From positions 1 to 42,345 of IMG/VR virus record IMGVR_UViG_3300010403_000013: 42,345 nucleotides of DNA, one strand, 5' to 3'. The notes under the pieces are model-generated. The model searched no databases and was not told where the DNA came from. It worked only from the letters and a program-made list of their open reading frames with translations. The stretch is from a virus. The position numbers were made by a program, and so were the translations under genes. Shown piece after piece: positions 4,781-13,180 of this stretch (the stretch's first letter is position 1; each line of letters begins with the position of its first letter).

Positions 4781-4955
4781 AAGTTTATTTTCGCTTTTAA
4801 AAATCCCATTGCCAAGTCGGATACTTCTCATGTCGATGGATCATGGCAAAGACAAGTATGAAAAAATCGATACAGGAAAACACCTTAAGGATAGGGATCA
4901 AAAGAAATACGAGAAAGACCTAATGCCTCAAATCCTTATGCGTATTGATCTATAG
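4773..4955 (+). CDS. Small basic/acidic charged protein, 60 aa
   Basis: The ATG at 4773 has GAAGGA eight bases upstream. The product begins with a short hydrophobic stretch (SLFSLLKIPLPSRILLM) and ends in a highly charged tail rich in Lys, Asp and Glu. It is the last gene of the recE/recT operon. Its TAG stop lies inside the palindrome CTATAG (4950-4955), which also supplies the stop of the convergent haem/barrel gene. The function is unknown. Confidence 0.6.
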   Translation: MSRSLFSLLKIPLPSRILLMSMDHGKDKYEKIDTGKHLKDRDQKKYEKDLMPQILMRIDL

Positions 4956-6065
4956 CCAAAGATGGCTCATCAAAAGATAGCTGATGGCTTCTTCTTCTTT
5001 CCTCGCCTCAATGCGAAATTCGCTATGGGGGATGAGCATAAGCTGAAGAGATAGGGCATGCCTTGAAATATTTTTTGACTCTAAGAGCCTTGAGCCAAAA
5101 TCATAATTGACGACAATTCCATGATAGATCTCGCTTCCGCTCCTTAGAAAGAGGAGTCTTTCATCGGGTTGGTCCAAAGTCTCAACATGATCAAACTCAG
5201 CCAGAAAATAAAGCCGATCCTTAATTGGAGCGCTTCCCAAAAAGGCCGCCAGCATTTTTTTATCATGATCATAATAACAACTTCCTCCCACGTAGTGGCG
5301 GGCACTAAGTTTCACCGTTGCGCGAAAGAGCGTGGCTTTCTCATCGGCGGAATTGACGTTTAGCTTCTCCCGGGAATCTTCTATCACAACGCTATGGCCA
5401 AAGGTTCTCGTCAAGGTGAGAGAGCCTATTTCCCCTTCAAGGTGAGCCTCAAGGTTTACGCTTTCCCTCCCCTGAGATATCCCGCTCGCGGATCTAACGA
5501 AGGCCGTGTGATCGTCCAAGTTAAGGCCAAAGGCTGGAAGAAAACGACCAGCCCTTAGCTGTAAGTGTTCACTTGTCCTCGTCTGGAGGTAATGCGTTCT
5601 GGATTCTTTGCTTTCCCCTGGTCCATATTTACCATATCCGAAAACTAAGTCAAACTGATCTCCAACGTGGAATGCGCCTTCAACAGCAGTCTGCATAGGG
5701 ATTTTAAGATAAAGGCTAGGCTGATTCTTAGTATCAATTCTCATATTAACTTGACGCCATTCTGGCTGGATGTTGAATTTCACATTGGAAAAAAGCATGG
5801 TCGGATCCTTAATGCTTTCAAGAGAGGGTATACCAAAAAACTCTCCAGCACCCTCATAACGAAAGGTCGAAAGTTCCGATGATACGCCACGACCATAAGA
5901 GGTGAGCACGCCGCCGCCGGCGGGGGATACATGGCAGGCAAGACAAGAAGTATATCCCTTCCTTATTAAATCGGGAAAGGCAAAGCCGGCGGTCGAGGTG
6001 AACCCGGAAAGGATAATGATTAGGAAGGGAATATTTTTAAATTTCGAGCGAAACCTTAATATCAA
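4950..6065 (-). CDS. Exported haem-motif protein with outer-membrane-barrel-like body
   Basis: The 371-residue product has a signal peptide (basic RFRSKFK, hydrophobic core IPFLIIILSGFTSTAGFA) and then a single c-type haem motif CLACH at residues 41-45, followed by a Gly-rich stretch. About 300 residues of alternating polar and hydrophobic strands follow and end in HLWL. This is the look of an outer-membrane beta-barrel, with GRFLPAFG-type turns seen in porin-like proteins. The start is TTG at 6065, overlapping the YceI gene by 29 bases; no ATG lies upstream of the signal. It is not a normal phage gene. A redox or envelope-modifying cargo role is inferred. Confidence 0.8.
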   Translation of the reverse strand: MILRFRSKFKNIPFLIIILSGFTSTAGFAFPDLIRKGYTSCLACHVSPAGGGVLTSYGRGVSSELSTFRYEGAGEFFGIPSLESIKDPTMLFSNVKFNIQPEWRQVNMRIDTKNQPSLYLKIPMQTAVEGAFHVGDQFDLVFGYGKYGPGESKESRTHYLQTRTSEHLQLRAGRFLPAFGLNLDDHTAFVRSASGISQGRESVNLEAHLEGEIGSLTLTRTFGHSVVIEDSREKLNVNSADEKATLFRATVKLSARHYVGGSCYYDHDKKMLAAFLGSAPIKDRLYFLAEFDHVETLDQPDERLLFLRSGSEIYHGIVVNYDFGSRLLESKNISRHALSLQLMLIPHSEFRIEARKEEEAISYLLMSHLWL

Positions 6066-6537
6066 CTATTTTCCCGACCGTTAAAAGTTTATAGGTAGGG
6101 ACCTTGATCCCATAGGCAGTGACGTCGACTTGAAACTTGGCGACCGCAATCTTATCGCCTTTAAACTCCACTTCACCTTTGACTTCTTTCACAACGCCGT
6201 GAAGAGTGAAATATCCTGTGAATTCTTTTTTTGAATCTTTCGCAATCTCTATAGGATCAAGACGAAAGCTTGCTTCTGGAAATTTTTTCTCTTCTAGGTA
6301 TCCTAGCATATGACCATCGCGCTCTTCTATACCAGTCTTTAATTGACCGATCGGAATCGTGAAAGTGCCAGCGATTTTATTATTCATAATAGTGGCCTTA
6401 GTTGCATCGACCTTTCCACCCTTACCCTCAATCTCTAAAAAGCCAGGCGTTGCCTTTGCAATGAAATCGGACGTTGCCTTGATCGCAGACACGTTCACAT
6501 AAGCTAGAGACAGAATGAAAAATAGTTCCTTTTTCAA
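6037..6537 (-). CDS. YceI-family periplasmic protein
   Basis: The 166-residue product has a signal peptide (MKKELFFILSLAYVNVSA) and a YceI-like lipocalin fold. Recognisable parts are the first strand with DFIAKATPGFLEIEGKGG, the segment KTGIEERDGHMLGYLEEKKF then PEASFRL, and the closing FQVDVTAYGIKVPTYKLL with KIVDIKVSLEI. Family members bind isoprenoid-type lipids, and some occur with b- or c-type cytochromes. Its start overlaps the zinc-ribbon stop (ATGA-type overlap) and its end overlaps the haem/barrel gene, so the three form a tight operon. Length fits a complete YceI protein. Confidence 0.9.
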   Translation of the reverse strand: MKKELFFILSLAYVNVSAIKATSDFIAKATPGFLEIEGKGGKVDATKATIMNNKIAGTFTIPIGQLKTGIEERDGHMLGYLEEKKFPEASFRLDPIEIAKDSKKEFTGYFTLHGVVKEVKGEVEFKGDKIAVAKFQVDVTAYGIKVPTYKLLTVGKIVDIKVSLEI

Positions 6538-6737
6538 AGGCCTCCCTCCTTTTGTGTTCTAATTTTTGGTTCCCAATGAATGAAAATATAAAAAGACAAA
6601 TAGCATAACTTACACGTTTTCTTTTTTCCAATTATATCGCCTAACATCATAATTGGAAATAAATTATCTTGATGGCAGTAAGGGCAAGGGATAGCTAGGT
6701 TATTTGGTTTTCCATATTTTCGATTCGAATCACTCAC
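6534..6737 (-). CDS. Small zinc-ribbon protein, 67 aa
   Basis: The start is GTG at 6737, six bases after a strong GGGAGGAG ribosome site; the ATG three bases upstream runs straight into a stop. A CPYCHQDN knuckle near residue 18 and a CKLCYLSF knuckle near residue 42 form a four-cysteine ribbon. A Lys-rich C-terminus ends where the YceI gene begins. It may be a small regulator or a chaperone-like factor of the operon; only the metal-binding ribbon is visible. Confidence 0.75.
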   Translation of the reverse strand: MSDSNRKYGKPNNLAIPCPYCHQDNLFPIMMLGDIIGKKKTCKLCYLSFYIFIHWEPKIRTQKEGGL

Positions 6738-6750
6738 ATAAATCTCCTCC

Positions 6751-6763
6751 CTGCGAGACGCAG
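6751..6763. promoter_or_regulatory. Small hairpin upstream of the zinc-ribbon/YceI operon
   Basis: CTGCG-AGA-CGCAG is a perfect 5-base-pair hairpin directly upstream of the GGGAGGAG ribosome site of the minus-strand operon, so on the mRNA it sits in the leader. On the plus strand it is followed by TTTT. It may limit ribosome access, but it is short enough to be accidental. Confidence 0.3.
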
Positions 6764-6856
6764 TTTTATAAGAAGATCAATAATAGATTCTATGATTATG
6801 CCAAAGAATATTAATGCCTTTACCAAGAGTAGATCTACCACTATCTGACTTCCATT

Positions 6857-6884
6857 TTGATTTGGGTAATTGTATTCTTATAAA
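6857..6884 (+). promoter_or_regulatory. Candidate sigma70-type promoter
   Basis: TTGATT (6857-6862) and TATAAA (6879-6884) are separated by 16 bases, 52 bases before the ATG at 6936. This is the best housekeeping-type promoter seen in the window and would drive the single plus-strand gene that follows. Confidence 0.6.
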
Positions 6885-6935
6885 AAGAAATCTATTAACA
6901 CTAAAAGTCAAAGCTTTTTTCGGAAGGTTAAAACC

Positions 6936-7478
6936 ATGCTGGGAATGCTGAGATCACTTACGTATGGCCAGAGGCTTAAGCTTTCGGAGCGTTCAGTGGT
7001 GATCCCAACTGAACCTGAAAATATAGAGCCATGGGTTAAGCGAGCAGAGGAAAGACAGGAAAAACTTGAAAAAAAAGTAGAAGAAAAATTGAAAGAAATC
7101 AAAGCAAGTAATAATACAAAACTTTTAAGAAAGGAGAAAGTGATGGGAGCAGGAACGCCTAATGGAGAATGTACAACCCCTCAAGACAAGGGCTATCTAT
7201 CGGTGGATATCCCAAAGGTACCAAGACAATCAACCCTCTACTATTTCGAAACTTGTTGTTGCGAAGACGACACAGGTGCTCTTTTGGAGGCCCTCTATCA
7301 ATTCGTTCTAGCCAAAAAACTCTTGAATCCAGCCATACTCAAAGTCATCAAAAAATATAGTCCAAACCGAGCATGTAATGCTCTCCAAATCGATTTCAAT
7401 CTTTTAGCTCTTTCGACTCAGACCGAGACCGATATGAAAGATATCTGGCTAAAATACATTTCACTCTTGATGATCTAA
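6936..7478 (+). CDS. Coiled-coil hypothetical protein, 180 aa
   Basis: The ATG at 6936 has GAAGG eight bases upstream; the longer frame from TTG 6870 would begin inside the promoter. Residues about 30-70 form a charged coiled coil (WVKRAEERQEKLEKKVEEKL). A Pro/Gly-rich hinge follows. The C-terminal half carries a TCCCEDDTG cluster and hydrophobic helices (GALLEALYQFVLAKKLLNPA). It stands alone between two leftward operons with its own promoter and terminator, the layout of a moron gene. I do not recognise a family. Confidence 0.7.
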   Translation: MLGMLRSLTYGQRLKLSERSVVIPTEPENIEPWVKRAEERQEKLEKKVEEKLKEIKASNNTKLLRKEKVMGAGTPNGECTTPQDKGYLSVDIPKVPRQSTLYYFETCCCEDDTGALLEALYQFVLAKKLLNPAILKVIKKYSPNRACNALQIDFNLLALSTQTETDMKDIWLKYISLLMI

Positions 7479-7534
7479 TCTCCTCTAGTGAAGTTTTGGG
7501 TATTTGACTCTCTTTTGCGATAGTCCTGGTGTAG

Positions 7535-7567
7535 AAGCCTCCCTAGTCATCGACCGGGGAGGCTTTT
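7535..7567 (+). terminator. Intrinsic terminator between convergent genes
   Basis: AAGCCTCCC (7535-7543) pairs perfectly with GGGAGGCTT (7557-7565), followed by a short T run. It lies 57 bases after the plus-strand gene and before the end of the leftward operon at 7610. The T run is on the plus-strand side, so it chiefly ends rightward transcription. Confidence 0.8.
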
Positions 7568-7609
7568 GTGCAAGGAAAATCTTCGTCTAACACTTACTCT
7601 ACCTGCTGC

Positions 7610-7876
7610 TCAAACGGGCGGGAGAGAACTTGGATAGATAGCTGTGAACGAAGTATACTGCAGAAACCCTTTTTCACCTAGCTCCTGAAGCGCCGTCGTT
7701 ACTTCTGCAGGAGAGATGCCGCCGCCGGATTGCCCTGAGATAACGTCAAAGGCATCGATACTGTTATAGGCCTGATCATAATCTGCCATCAATTGCCAGA
7801 CGGCTTTTGCCTGATCACCAAGTTCGGCTTCAGATAGAGCCCAGACGGCCTGCTGCTGTGGTTGAGAAATTGGCAT
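7610..7876 (-). CDS. Small helical protein, 88 aa
   Basis: I choose the ATG at 7876, eight bases after GGAG, over the TTG at 7888. The product has two helical stretches (QQQAVWALSEAELGDQAKAV and SPAEVTTALQELGEKGFLQ). The second looks like the recognition part of a small winged-helix, with a hydrophobic end (FTAIYPSSLPPV). It is the last gene of the leftward accessory operon. A DNA-binding or structural role is possible, but none is recognised. Confidence 0.65.
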   Translation of the reverse strand: MPISQPQQQAVWALSEAELGDQAKAVWQLMADYDQAYNSIDAFDVISGQSGGGISPAEVTTALQELGEKGFLQYTSFTAIYPSSLPPV

Positions 7877-7897
7877 GCGATACTCCAAATTTAAAAA

Positions 7898-8266
7898 TTA
7901 GATTTTCACCCAAACATAAATACAAATCCAACGCCAACAGACACAGATCCTAATGTAGCGAATCCTTACATTCCCTGGGAGCGTCGCGATCTGATCGAGC
8001 CAAGGAAGATAAAGAAGTGATGCTTCTTTAACAACGTCAGAACCTTGCTGAGTTACCTCTTGAACAAAGCTCTTAAAGTCAACCCCTTTATGCCTTACCT
8101 CTTTCTCCCAAATCGACTCAAGATCATCGCGGTCAATAACAAGAGAACCACGAAGAGTTGAAGGATCATAGACTGCGTGGCCATTTGCAGAATAGATTCC
8201 AAGAGTTTCATCGGTTGGAGGAGTGCTCGGTGGATTGGCATGCGTACATTCAGTTTTATTTGTCAT
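7898..8266 (-). CDS. Hypothetical protein, 122 aa, with probable frameshift near its C-terminus
   Basis: From ATG 8266 the product starts with a Thr/Pro-rich region, then charged helices (LVIDRDDLESIWEKEVRHKG and SFVQEVTQQGSDVVKEAS) and LLYLPWLDQIATLPGNV. After that the zero frame reads RIRYIRICVCWRWICIYVW, an odd Cys/Trp/Arg-rich tail. The +1 frame from about 7965 reads GFATLGSVSVGVGFVFMFG and stops at 7906-7908, a credible Gly-rich membrane helix. I think the original protein ended with that helix and one base was lost or gained near 7966-7975. The function is unknown; a small membrane protein of the lysis or envelope group would fit. Confidence 0.6.
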   Translation of the reverse strand: MTNKTECTHANPPSTPPTDETLGIYSANGHAVYDPSTLRGSLVIDRDDLESIWEKEVRHKGVDFKSFVQEVTQQGSDVVKEASLLYLPWLDQIATLPGNVRIRYIRICVCWRWICIYVWVKI

Positions 8267-8290
8267 AGGTATTTCCAAAAAAAATGAAAA

Positions 8291-8686
8291 TTAGCAATTC
8301 GGCTCAAACTTAATTTTGATCGAGCTTGGCCAGCCTTTGTAGCTGAAGTCGCGAAGATAATAGCTAATATCGTTTAAAACTTCATCTTGATAGTACCTAG
8401 AGAAGTCTTTTAGCTTCCACCAAAAAAGCGTGGGATAGACATAATATTCGCGGCCATAGCTATCATAGCGACTCTCGCGGTGGGAGAAACAATAGCTCGA
8501 TGGTTGATACTTCGAGGTATCGACACGATACCATTTAGCCCTCTGTCCGCACCAACCGTTCACATCGTTAACAGATCTAAGATCACCCACCCAATCGTCA
8601 GCAAATACAGTAGCTTTGCAATCTGCGAATGCAGCGGTAGATCCAAAGATCGACAGCACAGCGAAAAATAAAGCATTCCTTAACAT
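8291..8686 (-). CDS. Exported small Tyr/Trp-rich protein, 131 aa
   Basis: AGGAGG stands eight bases before the ATG at 8686; the ATG at 8692 is too close to it. The first 22 residues are a clear Sec signal (LRNALFFAVLSIFGSTAAFA) with an AFA cleavage site. The mature part is very rich in Tyr, Trp, Phe and Ser and has four cysteines (DCK, GWCG, SYCF and the final PNC), enough for two disulfides. It should be periplasmic or secreted. No catalytic motif of an endolysin is visible. Its neighbour upstream is the two-helix membrane protein. Confidence 0.75.
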   Translation of the reverse strand: MLRNALFFAVLSIFGSTAAFADCKATVFADDWVGDLRSVNDVNGWCGQRAKWYRVDTSKYQPSSYCFSHRESRYDSYGREYYVYPTLFWWKLKDFSRYYQDEVLNDISYYLRDFSYKGWPSSIKIKFEPNC

Positions 8687-8704
8687 CTCCATTTCCTCCT
8701 TAAA

Positions 8705-8862
8705 TCATCGAACAAAGAAGACCATTAGAACCACAGTTATCAAGAGTAAAACGAGCAAAGTCAGAATATGCCAGTTCCAACCAAAGTAGAAGTTTGGAAC
8801 AACACACACCATGACTAAGGTGAAGAGATAAAAAAAAATACGAAAAGATTGCGAGAAAACAT
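8705..8862 (-). CDS. Two-helix membrane protein made by -1 frameshift (candidate holin)
   Basis: The stretch has no long open frame. The ATG at 8862, five bases after an AGGATGG site, reads 11 codons to a run of nine T (8830-8838 on this strand). In the zero frame it stops soon after. A -1 slip on T_TTT_TTT continues to TGA 8705-8707 and gives 52 residues with two membrane helices: NLFVFFFYLFTLVMVCVV, a short FYFGWNW turn, and HILTLLVLLLITVVLMVFF ending in VR. This is holin-like in size and shape. The same heptamer is used by the tail chaperone gene of this phage. A one-base homopolymer error is the main alternative. The exported protein gene begins 18 bases downstream. Confidence 0.6.
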
Positions 8863-9025
8863 TAACCCATCCTAAGGTAAACTAGCCACAGCACCAGCAA
8901 TTGGTGCCATAGCTTACTCAAAATAACTAAGGTGTCGTTGGCTATAAACTTTGAAACAATACTAGTCAGTTTGTTATCCCAAGGCCAGCTTTAATTAACA
9001 ACTGATCCCAGGATAGCAAACAGCA
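8863..9025. other. Stretch without a recognised gene
   Basis: I see no frame worth calling in these bases. The only near-coding part is 8995-9027, which can be read as a frameshifted extension of the upstream haem lipoprotein. CAGCACCAGCAATTGGTGC near 8887 contains a short imperfect inverted repeat around CAATTG. Confidence 0.4.
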
Positions 9026-9376
9026 TCAAAAAAAAGTGAGCATCTCAGTTCTCACATTATCTGGCAGAGCCTTAGGAGCATTCGAAGGCGGCATCTTCTT
9101 AGACCATAGATAATTCTTGGCCTGTGAGGCCCTCAATGCATTCTCTCCCTGCATGAATTGAGCAGTGGCATGACAACTCTGGCAATAATTTGCGAGATAG
9201 GTCTGCATCTTTTGGTAGCTTATCTTAGTTCCAGTATCAGGGTCATCGCCAGGATCTGTACCTGGATCAGTTCCCGGTCCAGGCGAGGGATTATCGGAAG
9301 TCTTTTCAACCACTCTTTCTCCACAGGAGAAGCACGCCAAAACTAAAAAAGTAATACCAAGTTTTTTCAGTTTCAT
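9026..9376 (-). CDS. Small c-type haem lipoprotein, 116 aa
   Basis: From ATG 9376 the product has a lipoprotein signal with VLAC at 12-15 and a second cysteine at 18. An acidic Pro/Gly/Asp repeat linker (GPGTDPGTDPGDDPDTG) follows. The rest is a small cytochrome-like domain with CQSCH at 65-69 and a later MPPS (95-98) whose Met can be the distal haem ligand. It should sit in the periplasm tethered to a membrane. It lies 19 bases after the larger haem lipoprotein. Its stop directly follows a T8 run, so a longer form by slippage cannot be excluded. Cytochrome cargo is very unusual in a phage. Confidence 0.8.
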   Translation of the reverse strand: MKLKKLGITFLVLACFSCGERVVEKTSDNPSPGPGTDPGTDPGDDPDTGTKISYQKMQTYLANYCQSCHATAQFMQGENALRASQAKNYLWSKKMPPSNAPKALPDNVRTEMLTFF

Positions 9377-9395
9377 AGTCCTAGGCCCTTCCTGG

Positions 9396-10877
9396 TTAAG
9401 GCAAATTGGCATCCTCATAGGCAGCCGTCTCGTCCACTAAAGTCTGAAAGTTTGCTGAAAGTGTAGCAAGGTTGATGGTTCCCCCTGAGAGAAGATTTCC
9501 GAACACCTGAGAACTCACCGCCGCTCCTTGGAGTCTTTCCCTAAACGTCGCAGCATCGAACCAGAGGAGCGATGCGACCTGTTCTAGGCGCATCTCGGTT
9601 CTAAGCGGCAAAGCCACAACGTTCCAAACGGGATCTTTTTCAGCCGTTATCCCAAGGTCTGCCATTGCTCGCGCATGGTTTCGATTGAGTTCTTCGATTT
9701 GAGCCGTGATCTTATCGAAGCGAAAGAAGATATCGGCCAACCTTTTTTCGTCTCGGTTATAAGCGGTATTATTTAAGATGTGAGCCCGAAGCTGATCGCG
9801 AAAAGCGATTGCGACGCCTTGGTTAAAGTGGCAATTACCGCAATCACCGATCCTAATAGTTGCGTCAAGTTGTGCTGCAGCTCCTGCTAGGTTGATAACG
9901 ACGTTATTTGGCGCCGCCACCTCGGCAGTATCGTTTGCATTATTTAGTCTATAAAGTGACCATAGGCCATTATTCTGCGTGCAAATATGCTCTTGAGCAT
10001 TATGGCGGAAGATCTTGTTAGTAATTTTATTTCCATTAAGCTGACCGGCTTGAGCAAGTTCAACAGTGAAGCTGTTTTTAAAGATATCGTCGCCGCCGAG
10101 GACCGTGTCATAAGTAGAGATACATGTGCCATTTCTGCTTTCAAATACCGCAATCATCCGCGTTTTACCTAAGGCAATCTGGCTCTGGCTGAAGCCACTG
10201 AACATCGCCTCTTCATCATTTACCAGCGCCTGCCTATCGACTCCCTGCTGCGCAAAAAAGTTAGCGGTAAGCCTATCTTGCTTAACAAGCGAATAATAAA
10301 CGGCACCCTTCTTATCTGCTACCGCATCACCTTCGAAGGCTGTTATCAAAGACGATGCCGCGTAAACATAGGGACGCTTTGCCTGCGTTAGAAACTGAAT
10401 ATTGCGATTTCTGATCGTCTTACTTTCAAACTTTAAGATATCGGCACTCGATAAAATCTCCCAATCTTTCGAAGTCCAACCGATCGCCGAAAGGTCGATC
10501 CGATAGATACAGTTTCCAGGACCAATCGATGGAGCCTTATAAAGTTCCCGCTCGGAACTCAGCTGATTGAACCCTCGATTTACTCCCTGCTCAAATTCGG
10601 CCATCTGATCGCCAAGGTTATATCTCTCGCAACCGACAACGTAGCGCGTATTCTGGCGTTCGGTGTCAGAGTTCAGATTTTGAAGATCGAGGAGAATGCT
10701 ATCTTCTATCGTATCTATCGTTTGAAATCCAGGTCGCGGAGGATCGCGTGGCTCAGGGATTGGCTCCGATGGTTTTTCAATTATGACGTTGTTATTCACT
10801 TTTTTAGTTTTTGTTTTTTGACAATTAAATGAAAAAACAAATGCAAATAAAGTAAGAAAAGAGAAAAATTTAACCAT
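9396..10877 (-). CDS. Large exported lipoprotein with c-type haem motif, 493 aa
   Basis: The ATG at 10877 follows GGAGG by nine bases. The signal peptide ends in FSFNC (Cys 19), a lipobox with an unusual Asn at -1, followed by a Lys-rich then Pro-rich linker. The body has several cysteines and one haem motif, CGNCH at 346-350, preceded by IRIGD. The C-terminal 140 residues are helical (LADIFFRFDKITAQIEELNR). It resembles the haem-binding lipoproteins of predatory and other delta-type bacteria rather than any phage protein. It is cotranscribed with the small haem lipoprotein, which suggests that the two act together. Confidence 0.75.
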   Translation of the reverse strand: MVKFFSFLTLFAFVFSFNCQKTKTKKVNNNVIIEKPSEPIPEPRDPPRPGFQTIDTIEDSILLDLQNLNSDTERQNTRYVVGCERYNLGDQMAEFEQGVNRGFNQLSSERELYKAPSIGPGNCIYRIDLSAIGWTSKDWEILSSADILKFESKTIRNRNIQFLTQAKRPYVYAASSLITAFEGDAVADKKGAVYYSLVKQDRLTANFFAQQGVDRQALVNDEEAMFSGFSQSQIALGKTRMIAVFESRNGTCISTYDTVLGGDDIFKNSFTVELAQAGQLNGNKITNKIFRHNAQEHICTQNNGLWSLYRLNNANDTAEVAAPNNVVINLAGAAAQLDATIRIGDCGNCHFNQGVAIAFRDQLRAHILNNTAYNRDEKRLADIFFRFDKITAQIEELNRNHARAMADLGITAEKDPVWNVVALPLRTEMRLEQVASLLWFDAATFRERLQGAAVSSQVFGNLLSGGTINLATLSANFQTLVDETAAYEDANLP

Positions 10878-11056: not shown

Positions 11057-13180
11057 ATGGCTTTATTACACCCGCCTGAAACTGGACCGGAAGGTCCCAT
11101 GGGTCCAGAGGGTCCGATAGGTCCCGAAGGTCCGAAGGGAGATCAGGGTATCGATGGTGCCGTTGGACCGGAGGGACCTCAAGGACCAACAGGATCGCAA
11201 GGCATTCCAGGTCCTCAAGGTATTCAAGGGCCTCCAGGATCGATAGGGCCTCAGGGACCAGCAGGAGCTCAGGGAAATCCAGGGCCTGGCCTTCCAGTCG
11301 GGGGAACTACTGGTCAGACAATAAGAAAATCAAATAATACTGACTTTGCAACCATCTGGGCAGATGCTTCCAATATTACAAAAGAACCAACCGGATTTGT
11401 TACGAGAACAACATCAACAATTTCCTTCGTGGACGCAACGAGGACATTTACAATTACGCCAGTTGGCGGAATGTTTTCTGTTCATCAGGCTGGGCTAAGA
11501 TATGAAAAATCTGTCGCTGAAAGCATTGTTATCCCTGACGTTGAGGGATCGCATTGGATCTATTATAACCAGGGAGTTTTGAATTCTAGCCAGGTTTTTA
11601 ATAGGGCACTGTTCGAATTTGCAATGGTTGCTCTCCTTCATTGGGATGCAACGAACAAAATAGCTATACTATTTGGAGACAAACGCCATGGCGTCGTCAT
11701 GGATAAGGACACGCAATATAGTATCCTCATAACGGAAGGGGCTAAATTTGTAACAGGGTTTGCTCCTACCGGATATAATGCATCAGGCGATGGCAGTAGC
11801 GATGCGCATGCACAGCTTTCAATTGACGATGGAATTTTGCTTAATCAAGATATTGACTATATTATTTCGCACGCAAATCCTGTCACGCAGCCTTATCAGC
11901 AAATACTAGACCCATTTTCACTTATTCCAGTTCTTTATCGAATTGGAACAAATGGTCCTTGGAGAAAGGACACGGCAACAGGGTTTCCAGTAAAACAAGG
12001 CGCGTCGAGAATCCAATATAATGCCCTAGCAGGTAACGTCTGGTCTACTGCAGACGTAAGCAATGGCACATACCTTAACATGTGGATTATCGCGACCTTC
12101 AATCAGCGCGAACCAATAATGGCAATCTTGGGTCAGACAAACCATAGCACCTTGGCAACAGCACAATCAGAGCAACCTGTTGCCGTTAATTTAACTGGCC
12201 TTCCGCTCCAAAACGGAAAGCTCATTTGTAAAATTATCTATCAGGCATCAAATTCATACGCTAACGTTCCGCATGCGCGCATACGCGAAGTGCAGGATTA
12301 TCGCTCATCAGCCCTGATTGGTAGCACCATCCAAGGACCAGCTGGCGTCGGAATTCCAGCTGGAGGCCTTACAGGTCAGGTTCTTAAGAAAAACTCTAAT
12401 GCAGACTTTGATACAGCCTGGGGGACCGATACGCTATTGGGAGTTGATCGCTTCATTGCATCATCGGAGCAATTCGATGATGTGATTATGGGGGGCAATT
12501 CCATTGGCCTTTTGGGGGAGAATTTTTCTAAGAGCAATGGAAACGCGATAAGACGCTATGGACCTTCTAATGGTGCCTTCGGCTACCTTGAGCTATCCCT
12601 AGGGCTAGAGGATCAAGCTTATGCTGGAACCTCGCAATCTCCTTTAGATGCACCTTGGATGAATACTTATGCGGTTGGTGGCGAGTCGAGGTTTTATTCC
12701 CTTCCAGGATCAAAACTAACCCATGAGGTTAGATTCAAATTCCACGAAGGCCGTGTATCGGCGCAAGGAACCCTCGGAGCTTTCATCGGATGGACGGAAT
12801 GGAATACGGTCTTTACTGAAGATCAAAGAGCTAAGATGAGCTGTGGCCTCGTCACTGGCTCAACTACGCCTGATCAAACAAAGTTTTATATTCTTCATAA
12901 AAAGCTAGGCGATTGCATAAGACGCTATAATAGTACTGGCATTTCGCTCGATGGCAGTTGGCATCGCTATAAGCAGGTTTTAACCTTCGGTGTCATAAGC
13001 GCAAGGATCGAGCATTACTTAGATGGAATTTTGGTGGAGATAACAGAGGATGTACAGTTTCCTACGAAAGACATCGGCTGTGTTTTCGGCATGCACGTAA
13101 GAAATGTAATGAAGGCAAATACGAGAGTGGAAGGCCTTTGGATTGACTGGCACTATCTTTCCGTGGAGAGACCCATATGA
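11057..13180 (+). CDS. Collagen-like tail fibre protein, 707 aa
   Basis: Residues 10-78 are 23 uninterrupted Gly-X-Y triplets ([20 protein letters not shown] and on), which should form a collagen-like trimer stalk. Two copies of the fibre motif GGxTGQxxxKxSNxDFxTxW follow: [20 protein letters not shown] at about 82-101, and [20 protein letters not shown] near 435. The last 250 residues look like a lectin-type beta-sandwich ([20 protein letters not shown] and [13 protein letters not shown]). GGAG precedes the ATG by six bases. It is on the plus strand, opposite to the late operon. The role is host binding. Confidence 0.85.

Follow-up and report, generated by a model that had tools for sequence, protein, structure and literature searches.

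A putative auxiliary redox module with a predicted haem-barrel protein in the genome of a contractile-tailed phage

Genome context and gene content

The window, by which we mean the entire stretch of 42,345 nt analysed here (IMG/VR record IMGVR_UViG_3300010403_000013), carries head and contractile-tail genes for terminase, portal, capsid, sheath and baseplate proteins, as well as genes for a DnaB-like helicase and RecT, and an exact 123-bp direct repeat is found at the contig ends. Given the terminal repeat and the head and contractile-tail genes, the window most likely represents a complete phage genome. The genes under study lie well internal to the contig, which together with the exact repeat makes it unlikely that they derive from a host contig joined by mistake. 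No integrase was observed among the window proteins scanned, a subset of the ORFs, and the promoter and terminator scans returned hit numbers at chance level. Capsid and terminase searches gave no host assignment.

Two leftward operons, spanning 6737-4950 and 10877-9026 as originally read from the DNA, encode the proteins of interest (Table 1). The earlier note had described three exported proteins with a single CXXCH each (CLACH, CGNCH and CQSCH) and a YceI protein, a gene content that is borne out here: four CXXCH motifs are present in the listed ORFs, where approximately 0.02 would be expected from composition, and the YceI protein matches PF04264 with 68.8 bits (cut-off 23.7). Export signals were judged by eye; by this measure, the CLACH protein begins with a Sec signal and an SPase-I-like site (TAGFA/FPD), and the large and small proteins of the second operon contain lipobox-like cysteines that are conserved in their homologues from a second phage contig, G247. 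The YceI gene and the CLACH gene overlap by 29 bases. A fourth candidate cytochrome, the CPYCH protein of the first operon, was rejected, since it has no export signal, contains a second CXXC (CKLC) and resembles a zinc ribbon; no homologue of it was detected in the three other phages described below. Thus, the first operon contributes only its YceI and CLACH genes to the proposed system.

Two further genes in the neighbourhood deserve mention: an exported 133-aa protein with four cysteines and no family match sits between the two operons (8291-8692, minus strand), and a tail-fibre-like protein with N-terminal collagen-type Gly-X-Y repeats is encoded at 11057-13180 on the plus strand.

Table 1. 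Genes of the two leftward operons in the window
Feature	Position	Strand	Evidence
Predicted haem barrel, CLACH, 371 aa	4950..6065	-	AlphaFold2, Foldseek, hhalign to Cyc2, homologues
YceI-family periplasmic protein	6037..6537	-	PF04264; YceI-barrel order in bacteria and three other phages
67-aa CPYCH...CKLC protein, probable zinc ribbon	6534..6737	-	CXXC pair, without export signal
Small lipoprotein, CQSCH...MPP, probable class-I-type monohaem cytochrome	9026..9418	-	G247 homologue
Large 493-aa probable lipoprotein, CGNCH	9396..10877	-	G247 homologue; distant Bdellovibrionota relatives

The CLACH protein is predicted to resemble the haem porin Cyc2

The CLACH protein is not covered by any Pfam, NCBIfam or PHROGs model. 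An AlphaFold2 model computed from 94 aligned sequences (pLDDT 87.3, pTM 0.83) places 16 strands after the haem segment, and Foldseek searches with this model return 16-strand porins, with OprP/OprO (2o4v, 4rjw) among the best query-normalised scores. In addition, four members of the barrel family match PF07396 (Porin_O_P) at E <= 0.01. The CLACH protein is therefore predicted to be a 16-stranded outer-membrane barrel preceded by an N-terminal haem segment, and not a soluble cytochrome.

The predicted architecture is similar to that of Cyc2, an Fe(II)-oxidising monohaem porin in which an N-terminal CXXCH domain is fused to a 16-strand OprO/OprP-like barrel (PMC8406198). As in Cyc2, a signal peptide (by eye) is followed by a single N-terminal CXXCH, with CLACH at residue 41, the barrel beyond it being known from prediction only, and the length of 371 aa agrees with the Cyc2 minimum of at least 365 aa. 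Both proteins also share A-x-P...R-[QK] ahead of the haem motif and LT-x-[YF]-G-R behind it. Using hhalign, the barrel family aligns to a Cyc2 profile with 95.6% over 44 columns, corresponding to the haem segment, compared with 49% and 31% over approximately 20 columns for two other cytochrome alignments. The probe for Cyc2, built from the published motif and the residues that follow it, retrieved Cyc2-like plasmid genes; a c-type cytochrome gene lies near each of the six that were fetched, a further similarity to the window set. In contrast, the strict Cyc2 motifs are absent: the window barrel reads AFPDLIRKGYTS ahead of CLACH in place of AXPXFAR[QK][TY], and CLACHVSPAGGGVLTSYGR after it, where Cyc2 has PXL. 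Further differences from Cyc2 are the SPxGGG motif, the YceI partner and the location in a phage. Thus, the haem segments are alike although the defining motifs are missing, and on sequence and model we regard the barrel as built like a Cyc2-type protein and do not claim membership in Cyc2 proper. The MtrAB, MtoAB and PioAB systems likewise combine haem and a barrel for passage of electrons through the outer membrane (PMC8406198), but do so with a 26-strand barrel and a decahaem protein, whereas the window protein would fuse one haem to 16 strands.

Two residues outside the selected motif, Met124 and His186 (M124 and H186), are conserved in 93 of the 94 aligned barrels and in all four phages, making them candidate haem ligands. 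A parallel subfamily of barrel length from Bdellovibrionota (ARPEFAVRHGFTSCTACHVSPSGGGPRN, L166 and others) looks intermediate. Its members (L166-L171, L173-L175) are haem-barrel-like, 400-470 aa long, read ARPEFAxRHG...CxACHVSPSGGGPRN..GK and are nearer to the Cyc2 motif than is the barrel family of the window. The longest frame of L172 encodes a 502-aa relative with two N-terminal CXXCH motifs, possibly a dihaem barrel.

The likeness to Cyc2 also bears on a role in stress or metal handling, whereby the module would oxidise or reduce iron, peroxide or another toxic species at the surface and so protect the infected cell instead of supplying respiration. Cyc2 itself oxidises Fe(II) (PMC8406198), and single haems near the surface could perform such chemistry; however, no peroxidase or metal-binding family was matched, and we consider this role quite improbable.

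A YceI-barrel operon occurs in many bacteria

Scanning viral and bacterial collections with single proteins retrieved no homologue, nor did tblastn with three of the proteins against annotated phages or with the barrel against plasmids. Motif and alignment scans, on the other hand, did retrieve homologues. A DNA pattern for CxxCHx[ST]PxGGGx4YGR, which is absent from shuffled sequence, has among the matches listed many bacterial contigs, chiefly of Bdellovibrionota, with Acidobacteriota and Myxococcota, and one viral contig. With the window barrel as query, tblastn gives matches in 117 retrieved loci, and matches to the barrel profile are present in 102 of 144 Bdellovibrionota genomes, frequently two or more per genome and in some cases over the haem segment only. 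Because the loci in alignment A1 were chosen by the motif, the invariance of CXXCH, SPxGGG and YGR therein arises by construction, and CXXCH was therefore re-tested on 20 profile-picked homologues, none of which carries the exact selection motif; all 20 retain it. Together with the nine relatives of the large lipoprotein (see below), this indicates that the haem motifs are conserved in homologues, a point on which the earlier note had made its reading depend.

In 58 of 109 loci (including the viral locus L122), the barrel gene is immediately preceded by YceI, and an ORF with CXXCH...MP lies no more than three genes upstream of the barrel in 45 loci. At one locus, a lipoprotein cytochrome fused to YceI is encoded directly upstream of a haem barrel (L116:1718-2653, minus strand). 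Pairings of YceI with cytochromes have precedent: in E. coli, yceJI sets YceI alongside cytochrome b561. A YceI-like domain likewise accompanies a cytochrome in Cbp2D of Cellvibrio (PMC12542752). Unlike the window set, Cbp2D and E. coli yceJI have no outer-membrane barrel, involve other cytochromes and are not phage-borne.

Three other phages carry parts or all of the gene set

Alignment scans identified three IMG/VR viral contigs beyond the window that carry YceI and the barrel. G001 (3300049828_000506) also encodes a Gp23 capsid and a tail sheath, G246 (3300028840_000918) has YceI-barrel beside the terminase, and in G247 (3300049828_000410) both CXXCH lipoproteins, large and small, are encoded within a few kb of YceI-barrel. 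The search of related phages proposed at the outset thus finds both operons in G247. A scan with the phage YceI proteins returned only the same three contigs, and one with the large lipoprotein only G247. The lipoproteins are absent from two of the four phages, G001 and G246, both of them fragmentary contigs, and a single metagenome is the source of both G001 and G247. In an all-against-all BLASTP comparison, the overlap between the window phage and the other three is confined to cassette genes, the small lipoprotein being recognised by alignment, and no capsid or packaging gene is common to the window phage and the others. The G+C contents of the four phages are 0.435, 0.366, 0.392 and 0.53. 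Two incidental genes, both assigned by eye, are a TnpB-like transposon protein inside the T4-like fragment G001 (L125:6173-7372, plus strand) and a NeuB/sialic-acid-synthase-like gene between the structural and terminase genes of G246 (L132:3626-4549, plus strand).

The large lipoprotein has its G247 homologue at E 7e-45, and its CXXCH is invariant in all nine relatives, among them distant ones in Bdellovibrionota. Where the N-terminus of the bacterial relatives is present, a further CXXCH is found there, in regions that score mostly sub-threshold against PSCyt1/Cytochrome_CBB3; on one reading of these sequences, the two haem domains may be divided between separate proteins in the phages. No solved fold matched the model of the large protein. 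One two-CXXCH relative is fused to an FGE-sulfatase (formylglycine-generating enzyme-like) domain (L128:223-2859, minus strand). The small lipoprotein is 29% identical to its G247 counterpart, with CXXCH and MPP common to both, and does not reach the cut-off of the class-I c-type cytochrome profiles PF13442 and PF07635 (12.6 bits against 27 for PF13442, the G247 homologue scoring 25.8 against 27). It cannot be securely assigned as orthologous to the host-operon cytochrome, as it scores 17.0 bits against that profile and the best of approximately 500 shuffles with CXXCH and MPP kept reaches 17.5.

The strongest indication that the four genes form one functional set is their joint presence in G247. 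It also weighs against an alternative in which the proteins remodel the envelope with no redox purpose, the porin and lipoproteins replacing or masking host surface proteins, with the haem being only structural, and thereby preventing superinfection or altering permeability. Lipoproteins and porins at the cell surface commonly serve in exclusion, and other phage-encoded porin-like barrels exist among BFVD matches. Yet such remodelling leaves YceI unexplained and does not account for the retention of three haem motifs across phages and bacteria or for the complete set in G247, and we judge it unlikely.

In a quick tree, the four phage barrels and three Oligoflexales sequences form one clade, with the phage sequences on long branches, within or next to Bdellovibrionota sequences. 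When each phage barrel is placed alone, those of G001 and G246 join Oligoflexales, whereas those of the window and G247 take no resolved position. Owing to the long branches, the tree does not choose between single and repeated capture. The mainly bacterial homologues and the long phage branches would also suit a neutral passenger, in which host genes picked up at random, or joined on in a chimeric contig, play no part in infection. Against this stand the complete genome with its exact terminal repeat, the phage genes that flank the cassette in all four contigs, and the fact that reading frames stay open and haem motifs persist at approximately 30% identity, leaving such an origin very improbable. 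The terminal repeat, structural genes and bacterial homologues rather indicate host-type genes in a genuine phage, as expected of auxiliary metabolic genes.

Discussion

On balance, we lean towards the view that the four genes constitute an auxiliary redox module, taken from a bacterial operon, that would allow electrons to pass across the envelope of the infected cell. More tentatively, it may be a module that recurs in otherwise unrelated phages of Bdellovibrionota-like hosts and amounts to a complete trans-outer-membrane electron conduit. Such a module is favoured by the gene content, conservation, predicted fold, Cyc2-like haem segment, bacterial operon and presence in phages with different gene sets; it is disfavoured by the division of its two halves between separate operons in the window, by a barrel devoid of AXPXFAR[QK][TY] and PXL, and by a small lipoprotein that is not clearly orthologous.

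As a model, the four genes would derive from a bacterial operon, probably one belonging to Bdellovibrionota, and the host would export the proteins and attach haem. The barrel would insert into the outer membrane, placing its one haem at the mouth that faces the periplasm, an arrangement proposed for Cyc2, and the two lipoproteins would form a periplasmic relay. YceI, a putative carrier of isoprenoid-type lipids or quinones, might link this relay to membrane quinone or supply a lipid partner. Electrons could then travel to or from the outside via the lipoprotein cytochromes and the barrel-mouth haem, such that respiration and membrane energy of the infected cell last until burst. What we infer here is haem attachment, the cooperation of the four proteins, coupling to quinone, the direction and substrate of electron flow, the benefit and the host.

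A redox or envelope role for an auxiliary system, as put forward in the earlier note, remains the best reading, with the amendment that the CLACH product is no simple haem protein but a predicted fused Cyc2-like barrel; the barrel nature, the bacterial YceI-barrel operon and the carriage by other phages are additions to that account. The earlier note named no published system of this kind, and we likewise found none in the open literature searched. Known phage genes related to respiration or photosynthesis mostly feed inner-membrane or cytoplasmic pathways. Like the cassette, phage auxiliary metabolic genes are host-derived and may sustain host energy metabolism, an example related to electron transport or haem being viral AlaS (PMC11480375); their site of action is the cytoplasm or inner membrane, whereas the products of the window set are predicted to lie at the outer membrane.

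These observations suggest recurrent use by phages of a bacterial device for electron transfer at the surface of the host cell. If so, a phage-borne haem barrel would put viral control at the outer membrane, the site of electron exchange with minerals or other outside partners. The findings also draw attention to a widespread bacterial barrel family and its YceI operon, of which we found no published description in the open literature searched, and connect YceI proteins with Cyc2-type cytochromes in a way that lends itself to direct testing.
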